From NCBI RefSeq assembly GCF_016806835.2, contig NZ_CP086112.1, positions 390,001-454,000 on the forward strand: a stretch of 64,000 bases of DNA, in the 5' to 3' direction. The translations under genes and the position numbers were made by a program. The stretch is from Skermanella rosea (GTDB taxonomy: Bacteria > Pseudomonadota > Alphaproteobacteria > Azospirillales > Azospirillaceae). The first letter of the stretch is position 1; every line of letters begins with the position of its first letter. Below are positions 23,377-36,381 of the stretch, one piece after another. The notes under the pieces were generated by a model. That model was not told the origin of the DNA. It worked only from the letters and a program-made list of their open reading frames with translations, and searched no databases.

Positions 23377-23612
23377 GGGGAGGGGTGCCGGCGGCGGGGG
23401 CCGACCGAGTCACTCCACGTCGCCCCGCCCCCTTGAACCCGGGCTTCGACGCCGCGCGTCACGAAAACCAACCAAACCCCTCTCCCCCTTGGGCTAATCT
23501 ATCAACAGATCTTTTTAGGTGCGGCAGGTTGACTCGGGTTTGTCGCTGTAGTTGCGTAGTTTGGCGGGGATGTGATTCTGTTCGTGACGTTCTCAGGCGG
23601 AGGGCGTCACGA

Positions 23613-24514
23613 ATGGACATTCAGGTTGATATCGTCGGCCGTTTCAACGATGAACGGCTGAAAAAAGGGGGCGGCAACTGCTGCAAAGGATGGTCGAGCG
23701 CTCGACCGTCCGCATTCGGCGTTTGTCGAACGACCGGATCGAAGAGGCTCGCTTCGGGCGTTGGCTGAACAATGCCAAGGTAAGACTGGTGGAAATGGAA
23801 TGCACGATCGGCGAGCAGATGCGGGCGCGCGTCGTCGGCCTGCATGTTCTGGCCATCCAGGACACCAGCGAATTGAACTATCAGGCCCATGCCGGACGAA
23901 CGCGGGGCCTGGGCACCGTGGGCAATGGCCGGGACGCCGGGCTGTTCGTCCATCCGGTGCTGGCGGTCGAGGCCGAAAGCGGAGCTTGTCTGGGACTTGT
24001 CGGAGCGCAGGTCTACGCCCGTCATGAAACCGCGGCCAAGCACCGTCGGGCTCTGCCGATCGAGAGCAAGGAATCGATGCGCTGGCTGGAGGGCGCGCAG
24101 ACAGCCAAGCACTATCTCGATACGGCCCGGCACGTCACGGTCGTCGCCGACCGCGAAAGCGACATCTACGAGGAATGGGAGCGGCTGCCGGAAGCGGGTT
24201 TCGATCTTCTGACGCGGGCCTGCCGCGACAGGGCGCTGGCCGGAGGCGGCTACTTATACGCCTGGAGCGACGCGCTGGCGGTGGCGGAGCGCTTCACGCT
24301 GGACCTTCCCGAACGCCCCCTCAACGCATCAGCGGCGCAGGCGGCGGCCTCCGGCCCGATCCCGCCCGGCCCCCGCGCCGCCGAGCGCGACGGCATGCTC
24401 AAGGCCGTCGCCGTGCCGCTCGCCCCGGAGCCGGACAGCACCGCCGCCCACGACCGCCCGGTGCTGATCGCAGTCGCGTGGCCGGACCCGAGGCGGACCG
24501 ACCAGCTCCTGTGA
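23613..24514 (+). pseudogene. IS4-family transposase, frameshifted and truncated
   Basis: ATG 23613 opens MDIQVDIVGRFNDERLKK; a -1 shift at the A6G4 run (23661-23670) is needed to continue into the long frame from about 23669 (RGRQLLQRMVERSTVR). The continuation shows two of the three catalytic acids (QDTSELNY and ADRESDIYEEW) but ends before the Y-R-E-K block that carries the third. From about residue 225 of the joined product the sequence stops looking like a transposase. The shift could be programmed, as in some IS families, but with the 3' half missing the copy must be dead. Confidence 0.75.
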
Positions 24515-24535: not shown

Positions 24536-24566
24536 GCATCACGGTAAACCAGCGACGAAGGCACCT
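24536..24566. repeat. IS66 left end: 8-bp target duplication plus terminal inverted repeat
   Basis: GCATCACG at 24536-24543 is repeated exactly at 32271-32278. The next 23 bases (24544-24566, starting GTAAACCAGCGACG) are the perfect reverse complement of 32248-32270. Eight-base duplication and a GTAA start are typical of IS66. Confidence 0.95.
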
Positions 24567-24649
24567 ACTCGAGCGCCATCACGCGCGCAGATTCCCGATG
24601 GTGGGCAGCGGGAGGATTTGCCGATGGGAGAGACCTCGGCGCGGCCGGA

Positions 24650-26239
24650 TCAGGCGGCGGCGGCAGTGTGAGGAGCGATGTTCATGCGGCCTGGATCGGC
24701 GGAACTGCTGGCGTCGGGCGGTCGCCAGTTGAACGGCAGCAAGGTATCGAGCGCCTGGATCTTGGTCCGTCCGATCCGGCCGATGACGTCGGTCAGGTAG
24801 GCTTCCGGGTTGATCCCGTTCAACCGGCAGGTTTCCACCAGGCTGTAGATCACGGCGGCGACTTTGCCGGCGGCATCCGAGCCGATCACGTTCCAGTTTT
24901 TCCTGCCGATGGCTATGCCGCGCAACGCCCGCTCGGCCGTCAGATTATCGATTTCCAGCGTGCCATCGGCGGCGTAGCGCGCCAAGGCATCCCACTGTGC
25001 GTTCATGTAGCCGAGTGCCTTGGCCAGTTCGCTGCGCGGCGCCACCTGGCTCAGCCGCTCGGTCAGCCAGGCCCGCAGGACATCGAGCAGCGGCACCGCC
25101 TCGCTCCGGCGCACCGCCAGGCGTTCCGCGGGCGGCAGCCCGTAGATTCGCCGCTCGATGCGGTACAGCGCGGCAATCTGCTTCACGCCCTCGCCGGCAA
25201 CCGGCGAGCCCTTGGCGCGCACCAGATCGACCAGCTTGCGCCGGGCGTGGCCGAGGCAGCCGGCCTCGACCATGGCACCACCCCGGTACAGGTGATCGAA
25301 GCCGGAGAAGGCATCGGCCTGCAGGGTGCCGGTGAAGCCCGCCAAGTGCTGGCCCGGATGCTTGCCGGCCCGTCCGGCGGAGAAGCGGAACACCGCGATC
25401 GAGGGTTCGCTGCCGCCGCGCGGCCGGGTGTCGTCGGCATAGACCCAGAAGCGGCCGTCGTGAGTGCCGGAACGGCCCGGATTGAGAACGGTCACCGGCG
25501 TGTCGTCGGCATGGATCTTGGTCCGCCGGATCAGCAGTTCGAGCAGGCGGTCGGCAATCGGCGCCAGATCGCGCGCGGCCGCTTCGACCCAGCCGTACAG
25601 GGTGGTGGTGGCGAGCAGCGCGCCGAACCGGGCGTAGTGCGCCGCCTGCCGGTGCAGCGGCATGTGGTTGAGGTACTTGGCGATGACGACCTGGGCGATG
25701 GTGCCGGCGGTGGGCAGGCCGCGCTCGATCGGCCGGTCGTCAGGAGCCGGAGCCTGGGCCAGTTCACCGCAGGTCCTGCAGGCGAACTTGGGCCGGACCG
25801 TGACGTGAACCTCGGCATGGGCCGGCACGAGGTGGAGCTGTTTGCTCTCGTCCTGGCCGATCCGGGCCATCTCCCGGCTGCAGCACGGGCACTGCGTGCT
25901 GGCGGGCAGGATCTCGCGGGTCACCCGCGGCAGACTGTCGGGCAGAGGACGCCGACCCCCGCGGCTGCGGCGGTGCCGTCCGGTCGTGTCCTCGCCCGAG
26001 GGTTCCGCCTCGCCGGGATCGGCCGGGGCAGGTGCTGCCGTGTCGAGCAGGCTGAACTGATCCGGGCTCATCTTCTCCGAGGAACGGCCGAAGATCCTGT
26101 GGCGCAGAACCGCCAGGAACGTCTCCAGTCGTTCGTTCTCGCGCGTCAGCACCGCAACCCGACGTTCCAGCACGGCGATCCGCTCGAGCGGATCATCCTT
26201 CGGGTTCGCAGGATTGCTGTCGTGCCGGGCATCATCCAT
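24650..26239 (-). CDS. tnpC: IS66 transposase TnpC
   Basis: 529 aa, complete. N-terminal coiled coil (ERRVAVLTRENERLETFLAV), a leucine/zinc region with cysteines (CPCCSREM, CRTCGELA), then the catalytic domain with the DDE residues in KIHADDTPV, ADAFSGFDHLY and DNLTAERALRG. It catalyses IS66 movement with the help of TnpA and TnpB. The frame shows no damage although tnpB of the same element is split. Confidence 0.95.
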   Translation of the reverse strand: MDDARHDSNPANPKDDPLERIAVLERRVAVLTRENERLETFLAVLRHRIFGRSSEKMSPDQFSLLDTAAPAPADPGEAEPSGEDTTGRHRRSRGGRRPLPDSLPRVTREILPASTQCPCCSREMARIGQDESKQLHLVPAHAEVHVTVRPKFACRTCGELAQAPAPDDRPIERGLPTAGTIAQVVIAKYLNHMPLHRQAAHYARFGALLATTTLYGWVEAAARDLAPIADRLLELLIRRTKIHADDTPVTVLNPGRSGTHDGRFWVYADDTRPRGGSEPSIAVFRFSAGRAGKHPGQHLAGFTGTLQADAFSGFDHLYRGGAMVEAGCLGHARRKLVDLVRAKGSPVAGEGVKQIAALYRIERRIYGLPPAERLAVRRSEAVPLLDVLRAWLTERLSQVAPRSELAKALGYMNAQWDALARYAADGTLEIDNLTAERALRGIAIGRKNWNVIGSDAAGKVAAVIYSLVETCRLNGINPEAYLTDVIGRIGRTKIQALDTLLPFNWRPPDASSSADPGRMNIAPHTAAAA

Positions 26240-26316
26240 GTAAAGAAAGTATCCGCGCCGTCCCTCGTCGTAAACCGCAGCAGAAGCAGTAACATAGAAG
26301 TAATGCAGGCTTCTGT

Positions 26317-26516
26317 TCAGACGATAAGCAGGGGCTTCGCGATGGGTTTTGTCTTGGCTGATCGCCAGTCCAGACCGTCAACGAGCAGCGACATCTGGGC
26401 ACGGCTGATCGTCACCACGCCATCCGCCGGGCTTGGCCAGATGAACTTTCCCTCGGTCAGGCGTTTCTGCATCAGCAGAAAGCCGGTGGTGTCGTACATT
26501 AGAACCTTGATCGTGT
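26317..26516 (-). pseudogene. tnpB: IS66 tnpB, 3' part
   Basis: Encodes the C-terminal half of TnpB from about TIKVLMYDTTGFLLMQKRL through KFIWPSPADGVVTISRAQM to the stop. It joins conceptually to the 5' part at 31671-31826: the expected FVFRGR-x4-IKVL run of IS66 TnpB is broken exactly between the two. Upstream of 26516 the frame continues only into the inserted element. Confidence 0.9.
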
Positions 26517-26549
26517 GCGCGAACTGCATGACATAGTGCATCCCTCCTC

Positions 26550-28304
26550 TCACAATCCTGGCAGCTGCATAGTTTCATCTCTATGATAATCAATTAGGTT
26601 TTTCGGACGCCGCGCCTTGACCTCGTTCACGCCCGTTCGTACGGCATCGGTCTCCAAGGCGGCAGCCGGGATGTGCCAGGGAGCCGACGGAACAAGTTGC
26701 GTGGCCGGCAAGGTCCCGCGTTGGATGAGACGATGCACGGACGGGATGGAGATGCCGAGCCGCTTCGCCGCTTTCTCGGCTGTCAGCATCTCGGGACGGG
26801 GTACCGACGGATCGAAGTCGGGAATGCCAAGCCGCTCTCGTAACAGCCGAACCTTCACGGTCGTCCAGGTCTCCCCGTTTTCGCTCCGGCACTTCATGCG
26901 GTTTAGCGTGACGGAGATCTCATGGTCCGGCCAGTGACCGGAGAGCTGACGCACAACCTCCACGGCTCCCGGATTTCCCTTTTCCTGCCGACCCTCTATT
27001 CTGCGACGCGGTACGCGCAGTTCGGTGTGACGGCCGCCAACCCAGTGGATCCGCAGCACCGCCTCGTGTGCCGCGTCGTCGAGGTCAATCACCACTTCCT
27101 CCACGAGCAGCCGGGTCAGGCGCTGCCGGGTCCGCGCGTCGGCCGTCGGTGCATTCCAAGCTGCGGATAGGTTGTGAGCCAGTCCCAGGAGTGCCTCCTT
27201 GTCCACCTTCGGGCGTGCCGCGGATCGTGCCTCGGCCTCGGCAATCCGACGTTCAATTTGCGCCACCCGTTCCAGCGCGGTATTCCACCGAGCTTCCAGT
27301 TCCCTCACGACATGGCGCTTGCCCGGGTCCACAAGATCGTACCGGCGTGCAGCCAGCGAAGTGTCATAGCGGGCCGCTTCCAGTTCACGTTCCAGGGCCG
27401 CCCGCTCCTCCGCCCCGGCGGCGGATGCCTGGTCGGCGGCGAGCAGGGCGGCCTCCACCGCACGGCCAGACACGGCCTCCAGCATCTGGGCCACGATCGC
27501 CCGATCGACCCGGACGCCACCGATCCCGATGCACAGGCCGACACCGACGTGGGCGTCGTCTCCCCGGCATTGGTAGCGGTGGGCATGCCCGGATTGCATG
27601 CCGTAGAACACCCGCATCCTGCGGCCGCAGCGTCCGCACCGGACCAGCCCCGTCAGCAAGGCCCGCCCGCCCCGGCCGGCCTTGCGAGAGGCACGCTTCT
27701 GCATGTGGGCGTTCTCCTCCAGCATGCGCTGATGTTCCTCGAACTCGGCCCAGGTGATGTAGCCTTCGTGGTTGTCGCGCAGCAGGGCGTTCCATTCGGT
27801 GCGTTCCCGTCTGTGCCCAGTGGTCTTGCGGGCCCGACCCTCGACGACCCGTGTCCTGCTGGCCGTCCGGCCGAACACGTATGCGCCGGCATAGATCGGG
27901 TTGTTCAAGACCTGGATGACCGTGTGATAGGCCGGCGGTTGCCAGAGGATCTTGCAGGCGGTGAGATTGCGCCGCACGACAGGAAGCGAGAGGTCGGTTG
28001 CCCGCGCCCAGAGAAAGACCTGGCGGGCGCTGCCCAATTCGCGGAACTTGCTGAACAGCATGCGGATCGCGCCGGCGACACGCTCATCAGGGTCAATTTC
28101 AATCCTTCCGGCCTCGTTCCAGCAATAGCCAGGTGGCAGGGTGAACTGCAACTCGCCCCTGCGAGCTTTGCCATCCCGGGCCTCGATGCCGCGTTGGCGC
28201 AGCAGGCTGAGTTCGTACTCCGACATCGTTCCCTTCAGGCCAAGCAGAAGCCGGTCGTTAATCAGACAAGGATCGTAAACCCCGTCGGGATCAACGACCA
28301 GGGT
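26550..28304 (-). pseudogene. Large serine recombinase, C-terminal part (split by IS21)
   Basis: Begins mid-catalytic-domain (TLVVDPDGVYDP, KGTMSEYELSLLRQR), then the recombinase domain, a zinc ribbon (VRCGRCGRRM with later cysteine), a coiled coil (about 300-390 of this part) and an unusual C-terminal helix-turn-helix of MerR/excisionase type (LTAEKAAKRLGISIPSVHRL). Removing IS21 and one copy of its 7-bp duplication joins it in frame to the N-terminal part at 30858-31193, giving a 696-aa protein. An internal ATG (28226) could still yield a fragment without the catalytic serine. Confidence 0.9.
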
Positions 28305-28426
28305 CCCGGCCTGTGCATCGGCGTGGAACAGTAGGCCAGTTTCGGAGGTGATCGGCGTCCAATAACCGGCCGCCTCGGATCTGGCACAATACCACCCTTG
28401 GTTGGACGAGGGGGTGGCACGCGGGG

Positions 28427-29944
28427 ATGCTGACAGTGGAGACGATCGCGCGGATACGGCGGGAGCACGCGAAGGGGCGGAGCGTTCGGGCCATCGCCCG
28501 GGCGTTGAAGATCAACCGGGAAACGGTGGCGAAGTACCTGCGGTCTGGTGAGACGGCGCCGCGGTACGAGCGGACGCGGCAGCCGTATCCAAAGCTGGGG
28601 CAGTTCCAGGCGGAGCTGGAACGGTTGATCGCGGAGAACGACCGCCGGCCGGCGCGCGACCGGCTCGACTACCGGGGGCTCTTCGACCAGTTGACAGTGG
28701 CCGGGTTCGAGGGCGGCTACGACGCCGTGCGGCGCTATATCACGCGGTGGAAGCGGCGCCAGCCGGCGACGACGGCCGAGGCATTCGTGCCGCTGACCTT
28801 CGCACCGGGCGAGGCTTACCAGTTCGACTGGGCGGAGGAGTGGATCGTCCTGGACGGGGTGACGACGAAGGTGCAGGTGGCCCACGTGCGCCTGTGCCAC
28901 AGCCGGATGCCGTTCGTGGCGGTCTACCCCCGCCAGACCCAGGAGATGGTGTTCGACGCCCACGCCCGCGCCGCGGCGTTCTACGGCGGCCTGTGCGAGC
29001 GCGGCATCTACGACAACATGAAGACGGCGGTTGACGCCGTGTTCGTCGGCAAGGAGCGGCGCTTCAACCGCCGCTTCGCCCAGATGTGCTCGCACTACCT
29101 GGTCGAGCCGGTGGCCTGCACGCCGGCCTCGGGCTGGGAGAAGGGGCAGGTCGAGAACCAGGTCGGCACGTTGCGCCAGCGCCTGTTCACCCCACGCCTG
29201 CGGGCGGCAACGCTGGAGGAAGTAAACGAGCGGCTGCGCCACGCCGTGGAGGCGTGGGCGCGCACCGCACCGCATCCCGAGTTCCCCGACCGGACGGTGT
29301 GGGCGGTGTTCGAGGCGGAGCGGCCGGCGCTGGTCGCCGTGGCCAATGCCTTCGACGGCTTCCACGAGATCACGGCCAGCGCGTCGAAGACCTGCCTGAT
29401 CCGCTTCGAGCGCAACCGCTACAGCGTGGCGGCGGTGGCGGCCGGCAAGCCGGTGCAGGTGCGCGCCTACGCCGACCGGCTCGTGGCGTGGTGCGACGGC
29501 ACGGTGGTGGCCGAGCACCGGCGGGCCTTCGGGCACGGCCACACGATCTACGATCCGCTGCACTACCTGCCGGTCCTCGCCCGCAAGCCCGGCGCGCTGC
29601 GCAACGGGGCGCCGTTCCGGCAGTGGGAGCTGCCTGCGGCCCTGGCCAAGGTGAGGGTCCGGCTGGGCCGCTCCGACGAAGCCGACCGGCAGTTCGTCGG
29701 CATTCTCGCCGCCATCCTGACCGACGGCCTGGACGCGGTGGAGGCCGCCTGCCGCGAGGCGCTGGCGAGCGGGACGCACAGCCGGGACGTCATCCTGAAC
29801 ATCCTCGCCCGGCGCCACGACGTCACCCCGACGACGCCCGTGGCAGTGCCGGCGGCGCTGACGCTGACGATCGAACCGGCCGCCGACTGCGCGCGCTACG
29901 ACGGCCTGCGCGCGGCACGGGAGGGCTGTCATGGAGCGGCATGA
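28427..29944 (+). CDS. istA: IS21 transposase IstA
   Basis: 505 aa. N-terminal helix-turn-helix ([20 protein letters not shown]), catalytic core with the acids in [19 protein letters not shown] and [13 protein letters not shown], and a C-terminal barrel-like region. Cuts and joins the IS21 ends with IstB as ATP-dependent helper. Its 3' end overlaps istB by 14 bases. Confidence 0.95.
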
Positions 29945-30662
29945 GCTGATGGCGATGATGGCCGAGCTCAGCCTGGCGGGAATGCGCGCGGTCTACGACG
30001 AGGTGATGGCCGACGGCCTGAAGCGGCAGCGCACCGTCCAGCAGATCCTGGGCGACCTGCTGGCCGCGGAGCGCGCCGAGAAGAAGGCGCGCTCGATCCG
30101 CTACCAGCTCGGCGCGGCCAGGCTGCCGCTGGCCAGGACGCTTGCCGAGTTCGACTTCGCGGCCAGCCCGGTGAACGAAGCGCTGGTGCGCGACCTGCAC
30201 GACGGCGGCTTCCTGGAGACCCAGCGCAACGCCGTGTTCGTCGGCGGAACGGGTTCCGGCAAGACGCACATCTGCATCGCCATCACCGCCAACTGCGTAC
30301 GCCGCGGCGCGCGCGCCCGGTTCTTCAACGTCATCGACCTGGTGAACCGGCTGGAGGCCGAGGCCCGGGCCGGTCAGGCCGGCAAGCTCGCCGACCAGCT
30401 GACCCGCGTCGATCTGGTGGTGCTGGACGAGCTCGGCTACCTGCCGTTCTCCCAGAATGGCGGCCAGCTGCTGTTCCATACGCTGAGCAAGCTCTATTCC
30501 CGGACGTCGGTGTTCATCACGACGAACCTGAGCTTCGCCGAGTGGCCGTCCGTCTTCGGGGGCGACACCAAGATGACGGCCGCCCTGCTCGACCGGCTGA
30601 CGCACCACTGCGACATCCTGGAGACCGGGAACGAAAGCTGGCGGTTCAAGAACCGCTCCTGA
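29931..30662 (+). CDS. istB: IS21 helper ATPase IstB
   Basis: 243 aa AAA+ protein related to DnaC. Walker [12 protein letters not shown] at about 103-112, Walker [13 protein letters not shown], sensor 1 FITTNLSF. Assembles on DNA and brings IstA to the target. Translationally coupled to istA by overlap. Confidence 0.95.
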
Positions 30663-30857
30663 CCTTCCTTCCGCCCGTGCCTTGTCCAGGGGGGCCCACA
30701 GGTTTCCTCCCACACGCGCCGCTACGTCGGTCATGACGGGCACTCCGCGGCGCGCGCGGGTCCCTCCCGTGGACTCCCTGGACAAGAGGTTCTACAACCA
30801 AAAGAATGGTTGGATATTGGACGCCGATGCTGGCTGGTTATTCGAAGCCGATTGACA

Positions 30858-31193
30858 CCCGGCCAGAGCGCAGAGGTCAATGAGGTGATGCCAATCCCGG
30901 CCGTTGCGGGCCAGCCGTGAGGCCTCGATGCAGTAGACTGCGCCGACGGTGCCGGCGCAGACCGCCGCCACCAACTTCTGGAATCCTGGTCGGGCTTCGA
31001 GGCCGGACCCGGAGCGGCCAAGATCCTCGTCAATGATCATGACATCGACAAATCCCACCGCGCGTGCGGCATCGGCCAAGTCATACTGCCGACGGCGGCT
31101 TTCCGTGTGGTTGGCCACTTGCCCGGGTGAGGACTGGCGGACATAGACCGCGGCACCGCGGCCAAGATGGTCAGCGGTGATCTTGGGGCTCAT
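30858..31193 (-). pseudogene. Large serine recombinase, N-terminal part (split by IS21)
   Basis: 112 residues of the resolvase catalytic domain: AVYVRQSSPGQV holds the nucleophilic serine region, followed by DEDLGRSGSG and YCIEASRLARNGRDW. It reads into IS21 at residue 112 (LCALAG). ATG 31193 has GGGAGGACGG before it. Combined with 26550-28304 it is a standard large serine recombinase; alone it has no DNA-binding part. Confidence 0.9.
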
Positions 31194-31350
31194 GGCCGTC
31201 CTCCCCGTCCTCGATGCCCGACCGAGCGCCCACGGCTTCCAGGAGAAGGTCCGCCAGCACCTGCACGACCTCGTCCGGAACCACGACGTCCGGGGGAGGA
31301 ACATTGAGGTTCAGCGAGAACTGGGTCATCGGTCGCGGTCGTCTGGTCAT
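31171..31350 (-). CDS. Small acidic protein of the recombinase element
   Basis: 59 aa, containing FSLNLNVPPPDVVVPDEVVQ followed by a leucine-rich helix. A strong GAGGAGG ribosome site lies 7 bases before ATG 31350, and its end overlaps the recombinase start, so it is probably real and translationally coupled to it. Unknown function. It shares bases with the end of the DUF5372-like frame, so one of the two frames is under weaker constraint. Confidence 0.6.
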   Translation of the reverse strand: MTRRPRPMTQFSLNLNVPPPDVVVPDEVVQVLADLLLEAVGARSGIEDGEDGHEPQDHR

Positions 31351-31669
31351 CGGCAGCCTCCTCGGTGAGGGATCTGTCCGATGGTGTGTGATCGCCGGCC
31401 GTGTGCCGCAGATCCGAGAGAACTGCCGCCAATGCACCAAGGGCCGTGATGGCGGTCTGGGGTGGCCCTAACACCGCCATACCCAGGCAGTACGCCGCGT
31501 CGCACATCCAGGCCGGTAGTTCCCGGGCTGTTCCGGAGCGCTCCTCGAGCCAGATGACCGGGTGGCCGCTGCGTGCTGTCCGGTTTACTACCCGGAGGGT
31601 CTGCCCGTACAGCGGGTGCCATGGATACTCAACCCGCGCCGACTCGAAACTGTATGCTGAATGACGCCC
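31190..31669 (-). CDS. DUF5372-like protein of the recombinase element (start unresolved)
   Basis: The frame reads RVEYPWHPLYGQTLRVVNRT, then ELPAWMCDAAYC and a helical ALGALAAVLSDL segment, as in DUF5372 proteins that accompany recombinases and transposases. Its stop overlaps the recombinase ATG (ATGA at 31190-31193). No ATG, GTG or TTG occurs between the element edge (about 31671) and the conserved part; the frame stays open upstream into tnpA/tnpB DNA, so it may borrow a start from the host sequence or use a rare start codon. Confidence 0.55.
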   Translation of the reverse strand, partial: GRHSAYSFESARVEYPWHPLYGQTLRVVNRTARSGHPVIWLEERSGTARELPAWMCDAAYCLGMAVLGPPQTAITALGALAAVLSDLRHTAGDHTPSDRSLTEEAADDQTTATDDPVLAEPQCSSPGRRGSGRGRAGAGGPSPGSRGRSVGHRGRGGRP

Positions 31670-31670
31670 A

Positions 31671-31826
31671 ATCCGCCGAACGCCCTCGGAAAACGAAAAG
31701 ATGGCCACTGAAGGGATCCTGGAGCAGCACCGTCTGGATCTGTGCGGCAAGGCCGTCGATGCCACGGCGCAGGTCGGTCCGACCCGCCGCCAGATAGACA
31801 CGCACGCCATCCGGCAGCCCGATCAC
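31671..31826 (-). pseudogene. tnpB: IS66 tnpB, 5' part
   Basis: GTG at 31826 overlaps the tnpA stop (GTGA). The 52 codons give the standard TnpB start (MIGLPDGVRVYLAAGRTDLR through GHLFVFRGR). The frame then enters the inserted element and stops. The 3' part is 5.15 kb away at 26317-26516. Confidence 0.9.
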
Positions 31827-32200
31827 GACCGCCTCTCGACGACGTCGAGCAGCCGGCCCAGGGTCACGGCGTCGAAGCCACGCCCAACCCGGAGGACGCT
31901 GCCCCCCTTCAGAACCAGTTCGATCCGGTCATCCCACAGCTCCGAAACACTCACCGCCGGTTCGGCGACATGGACCGCCAGAAACGTCGCCACGGTCTCC
32001 GATCCGGCCGATGATGTCAGGGCATCGGCGGCCTGCGCTTTGAGCCGGGAGTTCCAGTAGCCCAGCGTGCCTGCCTTCAGCCCATGACGCTCGCTGTACA
32101 GCCGCAGCGACAGGCCGCTGCTCTTCCAGCCCGCCACGTGATCCCGCCAGAACTGCTCACGGTCTCCCAAGTGCCCGCCATCGGCCATCGCAGCCTCCAT
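31823..32200 (-). CDS. tnpA: IS66 accessory protein TnpA
   Basis: 125 aa with the TnpA helix-turn-helix (WKSSGLSLRLYSERHGLKAG) and a C-terminal beta segment (DRIELVLKGGSVLRV). First gene inside the right IS66 end. ATG 32200 follows ACAGGAAAT; a TTG at 32233 is possible. Ends in overlap with tnpB. Confidence 0.88.
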   Translation of the reverse strand: MEAAMADGGHLGDREQFWRDHVAGWKSSGLSLRLYSERHGLKAGTLGYWNSRLKAQAADALTSSAGSETVATFLAVHVAEPAVSVSELWDDRIELVLKGGSVLRVGRGFDAVTLGRLLDVVERRS

Positions 32201-32247
32201 CGATTTCCTGTCACCAGGAAAGCTCGGCTTCAACAGACAGGCGGAAA

Positions 32248-32278
32248 AGGTGCCTTCGTCGCTGGTTTACGCATCACG
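32248..32278. repeat. IS66 right end: terminal inverted repeat plus 8-bp target duplication
   Basis: 32248-32270 ends CGCTGGTTTAC, the mirror of the left end; GCATCACG at 32271-32278 is the second target copy. Confidence 0.95.
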
Positions 32279-34443: not shown

Positions 34444-34689
34444 ATGGCTGTCGTCAGCATGATTGAGGCGAAATCCAACCTGTCCCGCCTGGTTGAAGCG
34501 GTTGAGAACGGCACCGAAGCTGAAATCATCATCTCCCGCGACGGCAAGCCGGCCGCCCGGCTTGTGCCCGTGTCGCCTGTCCCGACCGGCCCACGAGTCG
34601 GCGTGGCGAAAGGGCGGTTCTCCGTACCCGACGACATTGACACCGACAATGAAACGATAAAGGGAATGTTCAGCGGTAGCGCCGAATGA
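34444..34689 (+). CDS. Phd/YefM-type antitoxin
   Basis: 81 aa. N-terminal Phd fold (MAVVSMIEAKSNLSRLVEAV, then EIIISRDGKPAARLVPV) binds operator DNA; the acidic C-terminal tail would wrap the toxin. Overlaps the toxin start by 4 bases. Lower GC than the neighbours, consistent with acquisition. Confidence 0.9.
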   Translation: MAVVSMIEAKSNLSRLVEAVENGTEAEIIISRDGKPAARLVPVSPVPTGPRVGVAKGRFSVPDDIDTDNETIKGMFSGSAE

Positions 34690-35081
34690 GATTGCTCCTG
34701 GACACCCATATTGCCCTCTGGGCTATCATTGATAGCCCGAACCTGACAGCCAGAATACGAGAACTGATTATCGATCCAGGCAATATCATCACCGTCAGTA
34801 CGGTGAGCGTCTGGGAAATCGCCATCAAGCATGCGCTCGCGCGAGGCAAGCCTACCGACATGCCGATATCAGGCGCGGAAGCACTCCACTATTTTCGAGC
34901 GGCCGGATATGTCCTGCTGAACATTTCACCCGAGCATGCCGCGGCAGTCGAACAGCTACCCGACCTGCACGCAGATCCGTTCGACCGTTTGCTGGTCGCA
35001 CAGTCGATGGTCGAACCCCTGCGATTGTTGACCCATGATGCGAAGGTCGCTGCCTATAGCGATCAAGTCATTCTTCTCTGA
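34686..35081 (+). CDS. PIN-domain ribonuclease toxin (VapC-like)
   Basis: 131 aa. PIN motifs: LLLDTHIALWA with the first acid, SVWEIAIKHA with the glutamate, and DPFDRLLVAQ followed by LLTHD with the last acids. Probably cleaves RNA when freed from the Phd-type antitoxin encoded just upstream. The combination Phd antitoxin plus PIN toxin is common in alphaproteobacteria. Confidence 0.92.
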   Translation: MRLLLDTHIALWAIIDSPNLTARIRELIIDPGNIITVSTVSVWEIAIKHALARGKPTDMPISGAEALHYFRAAGYVLLNISPEHAAAVEQLPDLHADPFDRLLVAQSMVEPLRLLTHDAKVAAYSDQVILL

Positions 35082-35197: not shown

Positions 35198-36381
35198 TAC
35201 CAAGGGCCGAAGAGCGTGACTCGTGAGTTACGGTTCCGGGATTCCCAAATTTGAGGAAGTATGATTCGATCCATCGTTGGAAATTGGCGATGGATTGTTG
35301 AGGATGGTTGCGGTTGCGCTGACACGGCTTGAGCTTGGAGCGGCGGAGCTTCGGTTGCGGGCGACACGGACATCGGACGCCGATGCAGTTCGGCGGCTTC
35401 TGGCGATTGCGCTGTTGCTGGAGGGCTCGTCCCGCGAGGCCGCGGCACGCGCGACCGGGATGGACCGGCAGACGCTGCGGGACTGGGTGCATCGCTATAA
35501 TGCGCAGGGACCGTCGGGCTTGTCGGACCGTAAGGCGCCGGGACGCACTCCCCTGCTGACACCGGAGCAGGAAGAGGTGGTCGCCGATTGGGTACGCACA
35601 GGGCCGACCCCCGAGGTGGACGGTGTCGTGCGGTGGCGCCGCTGCGATCTGGCCGCGCGCATCGAGCGGGAATTCGGCGTGAGGATTGCCGTGAAGACCG
35701 TCGGCACGCTCCTCGGCCGCCTCGGCTTCGTGCGCCTGTCGGCCCGGCCGCAGCACCCGAACCAGGACAGCCATGCCCTTGAGGCGCATAAAAAAACTTT
35801 GCCGACTTGGTCGCCGGTGCGATCCCGGAGCACGCCCGCGACAAACCGGTCGAACTGTGGTGGCAGGACGAAGCCCGTGTCGGCCAGCAGGGAACCCTGA
35901 CATACGTCTGGGCCGCCAAGGGCAGCCGGCCACGCCGGCCCAGGGACCTCCGCTACGAGTGGGCCTACATCTTCGGCGCCGTCTGCCCGGCCCGCGATGT
36001 CGGCGTCGCACTCGTCCTGCCTACCGTGAACATCGACATGATGAACAGGCACCTCGTCGAGATCAGCGCCTCTGTCCTGCCCGGCCACCACGCCGTACTC
36101 ACTCTGGACGGCGCGGGATGGCATCAGGACGGCGGGAAGCTGAAGCTTCCGGACAACATCTCCCTACTCCACCTGCCGCCCTATGCTCCCGAGTTGAACC
36201 CAGTCGAGAACATCTGGCAGTTCCTGCGACAGAACTACCTCAGCAACAGGGTCTTCCCAAAATACCAGGACATCCTCGATGCCTGCTGCAACGCCTGGAA
36301 TGTTCTCGCCTCAACCCAGGGGAAAATCCAGAGCATCGCTACCCGCGACTGGGCACAGGTCAATCTTTAGAGCTCTTGGTA
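35198..36381 (+). mobile_element. IS630-family insertion sequence
   Basis: About 1.18 kb bounded by TA on both sides and inverted ends TACCAAGGGC (from 35198) and TACCAAGAGC (other strand, ending 36381); about 16 of the first 23 positions agree. One two-frame transposase gene inside. TA targeting and the transposase type both fit IS630/Tc1-mariner. Confidence 0.8.
35304..36370 (+). CDS. IS630 transposase, two frames joined by a -1 shift
   Basis: The first frame (to about 35800) gives the helix-turn-helix half (SSREAAARATGMDRQTLRDW, GFVRLSARPQHPNQ). The second frame (ends 36370) gives the catalytic half: ELWWQDEARVGQQ, LTLDGAGWH, LPPYAPELNPVENIW with the DDE acids. They join at a run of seven A (35791-35797) where a -1 shift gives AHKKNFADLV. 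Many IS630 copies use such a shift, so this may be a working element rather than a mutant. ATG 35304 or TTG 35277 may start it. Confidence 0.8.

Follow-up and report, generated by a model that had tools for sequence, protein, structure and literature searches.

A large serine recombinase element that very probably targets IS66 tnpB at about codon 51, read from a nest of mobile elements in Skermanella rosea

Some mobile elements exploit others. The "res site hunters" Tn5053 and Tn402 carry tni genes, use a DDE-type transposase and insert in res sites, preferring the recombination site of another mobile element as their landing place. Group II introns and IStrons are second mobile elements that exploit an insertion sequence (IS), and RNA splicing makes the insertions of group II introns harmless. 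We analysed a window of 64,000 nucleotides (the whole stretch of DNA under study) from Skermanella rosea (RefSeq assembly GCF_016806835.2, contig NZ_CP086112.1; G000:C2:390001-454000 in our numbering of genomes and contigs), whose genome of 7.76 Mb comprises seven contigs. Here an IS66-family element is interrupted by an element with a large serine recombinase (LSR), which is in turn interrupted by an IS21-family element. Unlike Tn5053 and Tn402, the LSR element has a serine recombinase, its targets are protein-coding motifs of IS genes, and profile searches found no DDE domain among the open reading frames (ORFs) of the element proper; unlike group II introns and IStrons, it shows no evident splicing-type repair.

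Large serine recombinases have an N-terminal Y-x-R-x-S motif with the catalytic serine. An intact copy of this recombinase (L038, 696 aa) has Resolvase, Recombinase and zinc-ribbon domains, and Y17, R19, Q20 and S21, which we take to be catalytic, are invariant among 17 aligned relatives. XisF, the fdxN-element recombinase (NF041201), which excises a developmental element, gives the best NCBIfam match to the recombinase, but its 83.7 bits fall far short of the 375 bits set as cut-off for that family. The LSR targets surveyed by Durrant et al. 2022 (PMC10083194), as far as the available part of that paper goes, are enriched for a Mg-chelatase/ATP-dependent protease gene and for competence genes. 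The LSRs with known attB described there, including the multi-targeting TndX-like clade, resemble ours in the serine recombinase, in a short core within conserved coding sequence and in clusters that share one target gene, but IS genes are not named among the targets in that part of the paper, whereas they are the targets here. We found no description of IS-targeting LSR elements in the literature searched, which lay mostly outside subscription papers; IS66, IS21 and large serine recombinases are known kinds, and the site-specific targeting of IS genes by LSR elements is provisionally new. Taken as a whole, the comparisons below are very probably best explained by an LSR element that targets IS66 tnpB at about codon 51 by way of a circular form and a 2-bp core, and the middle element of the nest is probably no accidental arrival: it is a member of a widespread recombinase-driven lineage whose copies usually insert in one particular codon of one IS gene.

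The nest spans positions 24536-32278 of the window, with IS66 outermost, the LSR element in the middle and IS21 innermost:

24536-24543: left IS66 target duplication, 8 bp, GCATCACG, exact match with the right side
24544-32270, minus strand: IS66-family element, the outer shell (perfect 23-bp inverted ends; IS66 models; LSR-free copy in the same genome)
24650-26239, minus strand: IS66 tnpC (PF03050, 1.6e-84; NF033517, 2.8e-123)
26362-26520, minus strand: C-terminal half of IS66 tnpB (PF05717, 3.4e-16 on the ORF at 26317-26553; tblastn residues 51-103)
26519-26520: GC core dinucleotide on the tnpB-C side (comparison with unsplit tnpB)
26521-31674, minus strand: LSR element, about 2.6 kb without the IS21 that it contains (ends from an unsplit IS66 and an intact LSR copy)
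26550-28311, minus strand: C-terminal part of the recombinase gene, with Recombinase domain, zinc ribbon and helix-turn-helix (PF07508, PF13408, PF12728; tblastn residues 109-696)
28305-28311 and 30858-30864: IS21 target duplication, CCCGGCC, 7 bp (junctions read)
28312-30857, plus strand: IS21-family element inside the recombinase gene (junctions read; identical second copy; IS21-free recombinase at G000:C1)
28427-29944, plus strand: istA (NF033546, 1.9e-88)
29931-30662, plus strand: istB (PF01695, 2.9e-69)
30858-31193, minus strand: N-terminal catalytic part of the recombinase gene (PF00239, 1.3e-14; tblastn residues 1-112)
31171-31350, minus strand: small ORF of 59 aa between the DUF5372-like ORF and the recombinase (family searches gave no match)
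31400-31633, minus strand: DUF5372-like ORF upstream of the recombinase (PF17342, 2e-5; 24.9 bits against a Pfam gathering cut-off of 25)
31675-31676: GC core dinucleotide on the tnpB-N side (comparison with unsplit tnpB)
31677-31826, minus strand: N-terminal half of IS66 tnpB, about codons 1-50 (tblastn residues 1-51)
31823-32233, minus strand: IS66 tnpA (NF047593, 8.3e-16)
32271-32278: right IS66 target duplication, 8 bp, GCATCACG, exact match with the left side

The outer shell carries tnpA, tnpB in two pieces and tnpC with the IS66 DDE transposase; its inverted ends (24544-24566 and 32248-32270) are 23 bp long and 100% complementary, and 8 bp is the size of the IS66 target duplication. The inner element carries istA and istB with a target duplication of 7 bp here and 6 bp at its second genomic copy, IS21 duplications being several bp long. 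An earlier note on this DNA had described an IS66 with 23-bp ends and an 8-bp duplication, split in tnpB by a serine-recombinase element whose recombinase is split by an IS21 with a 7-bp duplication, and all three statements hold. The junctions it gave were confirmed as junctions, with two of its positions (26517 and 31671) lying 3-4 bp from the LSR element ends at 26521 and 31674, which we set by comparison with the unsplit IS66 copy on G000:C3 and the intact LSR copy on G000:C1. At the window insertion a 2-bp GC core stands on both sides, as expected of LSR integration without a longer target duplication.

The note's proposal to search for empty or part-filled sites yielded one for each of the three steps. 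For IS66, a congener (G002:C3) has both flanks uninterrupted (226 bp on the left at 96.0% identity and 2,230 bp on the right at 96.5%), and the 8-mer occurs there once, differing from GCATCACG by one base. The LSR step is matched by an IS66 copy in the same genome (G000:C3:197680-200253, 92-93% identical) with unsplit tnpB, and the IS21 step by an LSR copy (G000:C1:5847449-5850061, about 96% identical) that has no IS21 and an uninterrupted 696-aa recombinase. Chance does not account for the perfect 23-bp ends, the matching duplications and these three empty sites. A second IS21 copy (G000:C2:243845-246390) is identical to that of the window across 2,546 bp, so the IS21 step looks recent.

Beyond what the earlier note described, the middle insertion is, on the sequence comparisons that follow, a recurrent, site-specific event in IS66 tnpB and not a chance nest. 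Relatives were sought among species representatives with the recombinase sequence only, so the target had no part in their choice, and the best 80 loci of 491 relatives held 86 recombinase copies by our own count. We split these at 54% identity to the intact recombinase, giving 57 copies at or above the threshold (43 with both flanks available) and 29 below it. On at least one side, 52 of the 57 adjoined an IS66 TnpB interrupted at about codon 51 (30 did so on both sides), and these 52 lay 23 in sense and 29 in antisense relative to tnpB; TnpB flanked none of the 29 more distant copies, among which 22 had enough 5' flank and 26 enough 3' flank. N-halves of TnpB ended at residues 49-54 in 33 of 42 cases and C-halves started at residues 48-53 in 34 of 39, the remainder being mostly alignment overruns. 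The junction DNA likewise breaks at about codon 51, in most cases at a GG or GC, and 31 rows listed contain 27 different 40-nt targets. Within an Azospirillaceae set that includes the window, 14 of 16 copies sit at tnpB codon 51. This target is tiny, since the whole S. rosea genome has only three tnpB genes (four matches, one gene being split). Hosts in the scan include Alpha- and Betaproteobacteria, metagenome-assembled Verrucomicrobia, Acidobacteria and others.

Several observations weigh against so specific a target. Five of the 57 scan copies (L086, two in L105, L123 and L153) and two of the 16 Azospirillaceae copies (L038 and L077) show no break of TnpB at codon 51. The closest relative of the window copy, L038, lies inside a ycnI-like gene (DUF1775), where the best motif score falls at the true crossover register but is weak, ranking 79th of 127,922 background positions; this is as expected if L038 is an off-target insertion. 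The core dinucleotides of the two junctions sometimes disagree (L100 and L047, one mismatch), so the 2-bp core is an approximation. The counts also include near-copies (L117/L118 and L097/L098), copies of the Azospirillaceae set recur at three of the scan loci (L078/L051, L079/L050 and L090/L052), and L049 and L076 may be two halves of one copy. In five of 20 pairs compared for movement, taken up below, the likeness extends to all or one half of the tnpB flank (L044/L045, L099/L132, L094/L104, L111/L121 and L109/L110). We also observed L138 inside an ORF judged by eye to be receptor-like.

Targeted integration would proceed as follows. The element is a small transposon-like unit that carries, besides its large serine recombinase, a DUF5372-like ORF and a small ORF. 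The recombinase would recognise the DNA encoding a conserved TnpB stretch, FRGRRG|D..K, and, if active, would integrate the element at the first two bases of about codon 51 by conservative recombination between the joined ends of a circular form and the tnpB target, over a 2-bp core that is mostly G followed by G or C. Insertions in both directions relative to tnpB occur, and by eye the two element ends carry similar inward sequences. The usual landing site is a gene of another mobile element, not a host gene. The DUF5372-like ORF, found by profile match upstream of 108 of the 135 copies whose available sequence sufficed, is perhaps a directionality or targeting partner; it was found in none of three IS4/IS701 rows, none of three rows at tnpB residue 66 and not in the single group II row. 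Splitting TnpB should disable that IS66 copy. IS21 later interrupted the window recombinase.

Loss of IS66 mobility would not follow if the element were a tolerated guest, with sense insertions ending tnpB-N cleanly and restarting tnpB-C from a ribosome-binding site of their own so that IS66 might stay mobile. Azospirillum-type sense copies have the form this predicts (...GRRGD-stop on the N side, and AGGAGGG-ATG at the 3' end, in frame with tnpB-C), and intact duplications surround some IS66+LSR units. Set against this, the window copy has no stop (GATTGG) and the 3' motif doubles as a recombination end, so that its conservation needs no translation. The antisense copies, 29 of the 52 sited in tnpB, speak against split-TnpB tolerance as a general rule, and we consider this account unlikely.

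The LSR element moves independently of IS66, because near-identical recombinases sit in divergent tnpB halves. We compared recombinase and tnpB-flank identity in 20 hand-chosen pairs, one of which lacked usable values. Two copies within one genome (L043/L044 in G054) have recombinase DNA that is 99.9% identical between tnpB halves of 68.1% and 60.4% identity; recombinase against tnpB identity was 97.4% against 66.7% in L050/L051, 98.7% against 62.5% in L097/L115, and 94.8% against about 58% in L119/L122, which share one Paracoccus chromosome. Among the five pairs with similar flanks, the likeness in L094/L104 is confined to the C half of tnpB, and L099/L132 carry the element in opposite directions. 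L044/L045 form a 5,416-bp IS66+LSR unit, 99.9% identical on two replicons of the relative G054 and bordered at both sides by IS66-like ends; matching 8-bp repeats at the ends of these blocks, sought as a mark of composite transposition, were not found. In two Novosphingobium species, L109 and L110 have a unit in common that begins at an IS66 end, and the DNA to its left differs between the two. Among 96 copies tested, the window unit and L047, L053, L089, L099, L109, L113 and L132 have GTA-type ends and lie between intact 8-bp duplications, other matches being judged chance. These patterns suggest that IS66+LSR units may also travel together. In L047 itself (G068:C7:14000-29000), matching 8-bp duplications enclose a single IS66 whose tnpB and tnpC are each occupied by an LSR element, the two belonging to different clades.

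Shared units (L044/L045, L109/L110 and L117/L118) and the eight with intact duplications, the window's included, are also what one would expect if the recombinase and DUF5372-like ORF were passenger genes inherited with IS66. Near-identical elements in tnpB genes only 60-68% alike contradict this, as do insertion in both orientations, the intact copy L038 outside IS66 and the existence of unsplit tnpB copies, which make passenger genes very improbable. Joint travel does bear on the history of this locus: the fixed order given in the earlier note (IS66, then recombinase element, then IS21) holds for the building of the nest, but not for the locus, because the IS66 that arrived here could already have contained the LSR element, and the nest order does not prove that it came LSR-free.

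We give still less weight to three unrelated elements having piled up because IS-rich regions tolerate insertions. The IS21 in the recombinase resembles an ordinary pile-up, and the clade-A recombinase of L046 (G054:C3:677000-690000) is cut short after about residue 486; a full-length istB match lies about 0.6 kb further along, possibly another IS21 hitting an LSR element. Chance nesting does not fit the sharing of one tnpB codon by 52 of 57 relatives, the junction register or the clade-wise targets; it is contradicted for the LSR step and stands for the IS21 step. An assembly error at a junction is extremely improbable given the matching IS66 and IS21 duplications, all the empty sites and the same tnpB architecture in many other assemblies.

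Targeting of IS66 tnpB by the LSR element has parallels in other clades of the recombinase. These occupy recurrent places in IS66 (tnpC near residue 445 and tnpB near residue 66, with one further tnpB row near 98) and in istB (the Walker A motif, near 190 and near 215), where IstB residue numbers are approximate because the IstB query was only partly typed. We scanned 30 chosen flank ORFs against NCBIfam; 15 matched no mobile-element model, and the other 15 matched IS3 (three), IS4, IS701 (two), IS91/ISCR (two), IS1380, ISNCY, IS21 istA, istB, IS110, IS630 and a group II intron reverse transcriptase. The IS630 beside L163 is complete, so we treated it as a neighbour and did not count it as a target. 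Other flank ORFs matched the trehalohydrolase TreZ (L183, truncated), GalE (L223; complete, hence a neighbour) and a nucleoside hydrolase (L169, weak). In the S. rosea genome, the transposase of an IS4 and that of an IS701 are each occupied, at the RWTIE/EWRVE region, by a recombinase of another clade, and these two recombinases are identical (L073, G000:C1:2206000-2219000; L074, G000:C2:511000-524000). A distant-clade LSR (L180, G752:C3) adjoins a truncated group II intron reverse transcriptase match, which suggests targets beyond IS elements.

A FastTree phylogeny of 148 recombinase rows (119 with an assigned target, 29 with none) places the tnpB codon-51 label in one top-support clade of 58 rows, 54 labelled and four not. 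By parsimony over all 16 groups, the unassigned included, the tree has 28 changes against 85.3 in shuffles, and the 119 assigned rows alone have 16 target changes; the program flagged joined long branches deeper in the tree, and near-copies inflate the clustering. Labels followed a rule, apart from 15 loci assigned manually on NCBIfam results and inspection, and a further 17 rows, with overrunning alignments or a rearranged flank, were relabelled by hand; the codon-51 label was given to 44 rows by rule and to 54 after 10 hand corrections. IS3 labels of L067, L072 and L179 come from one flank, those of L068 and L069 were given by eye from likeness to L067, and L231, with an IstB match, was left unlabelled. 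From these patterns it seems likely that the wider LSR superfamily is specialised on ISs, with each clade hunting one conserved, function-encoding stretch (TnpB codon 51, TnpC near 445, IstB Walker A/190/215, the IS4/IS701 EWRVE motif, IS3 orfB and others) and target switches marking new clades, and that its members are hyperparasites that inactivate and may curb ISs.

Two further ISs lie close to the nest:

23477-24319, plus strand: truncated IS4-family copy beside the nest (NF033590, 9.4e-38; 99.6% identical to the full copy)
35807-36367: ORF of an IS630 near the nest (NF033545)

The nearby IS630 had been recognised in the earlier note, and the IS4 that it called already decayed is instead a truncated, nearly identical copy, the 843-bp 5' part of a full-length copy elsewhere in the genome (L238), ending at 24319. 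We rejected its reading as an oldest, decayed layer; nothing marks it as oldest. In G002 the 226 bp adjoining its position are present without IS4. Two small overlapping ORFs at 34444-35081 are, by eye, a candidate pair of Phd-type antitoxin and PIN-type toxin.

If the targeting of IS66 tnpB holds, a way of life that depends on insertion at one codon of other mobile elements would be a clear case of hyperparasitism in bacteria, and a class of "nested" IS structures would be explained by targeting. Since the natural targets of sister recombinases appear to differ and to lie in conserved protein motifs, the LSR family would offer a natural series for studying how specificity changes. Such IS-hunting elements could limit the spread of ISs.

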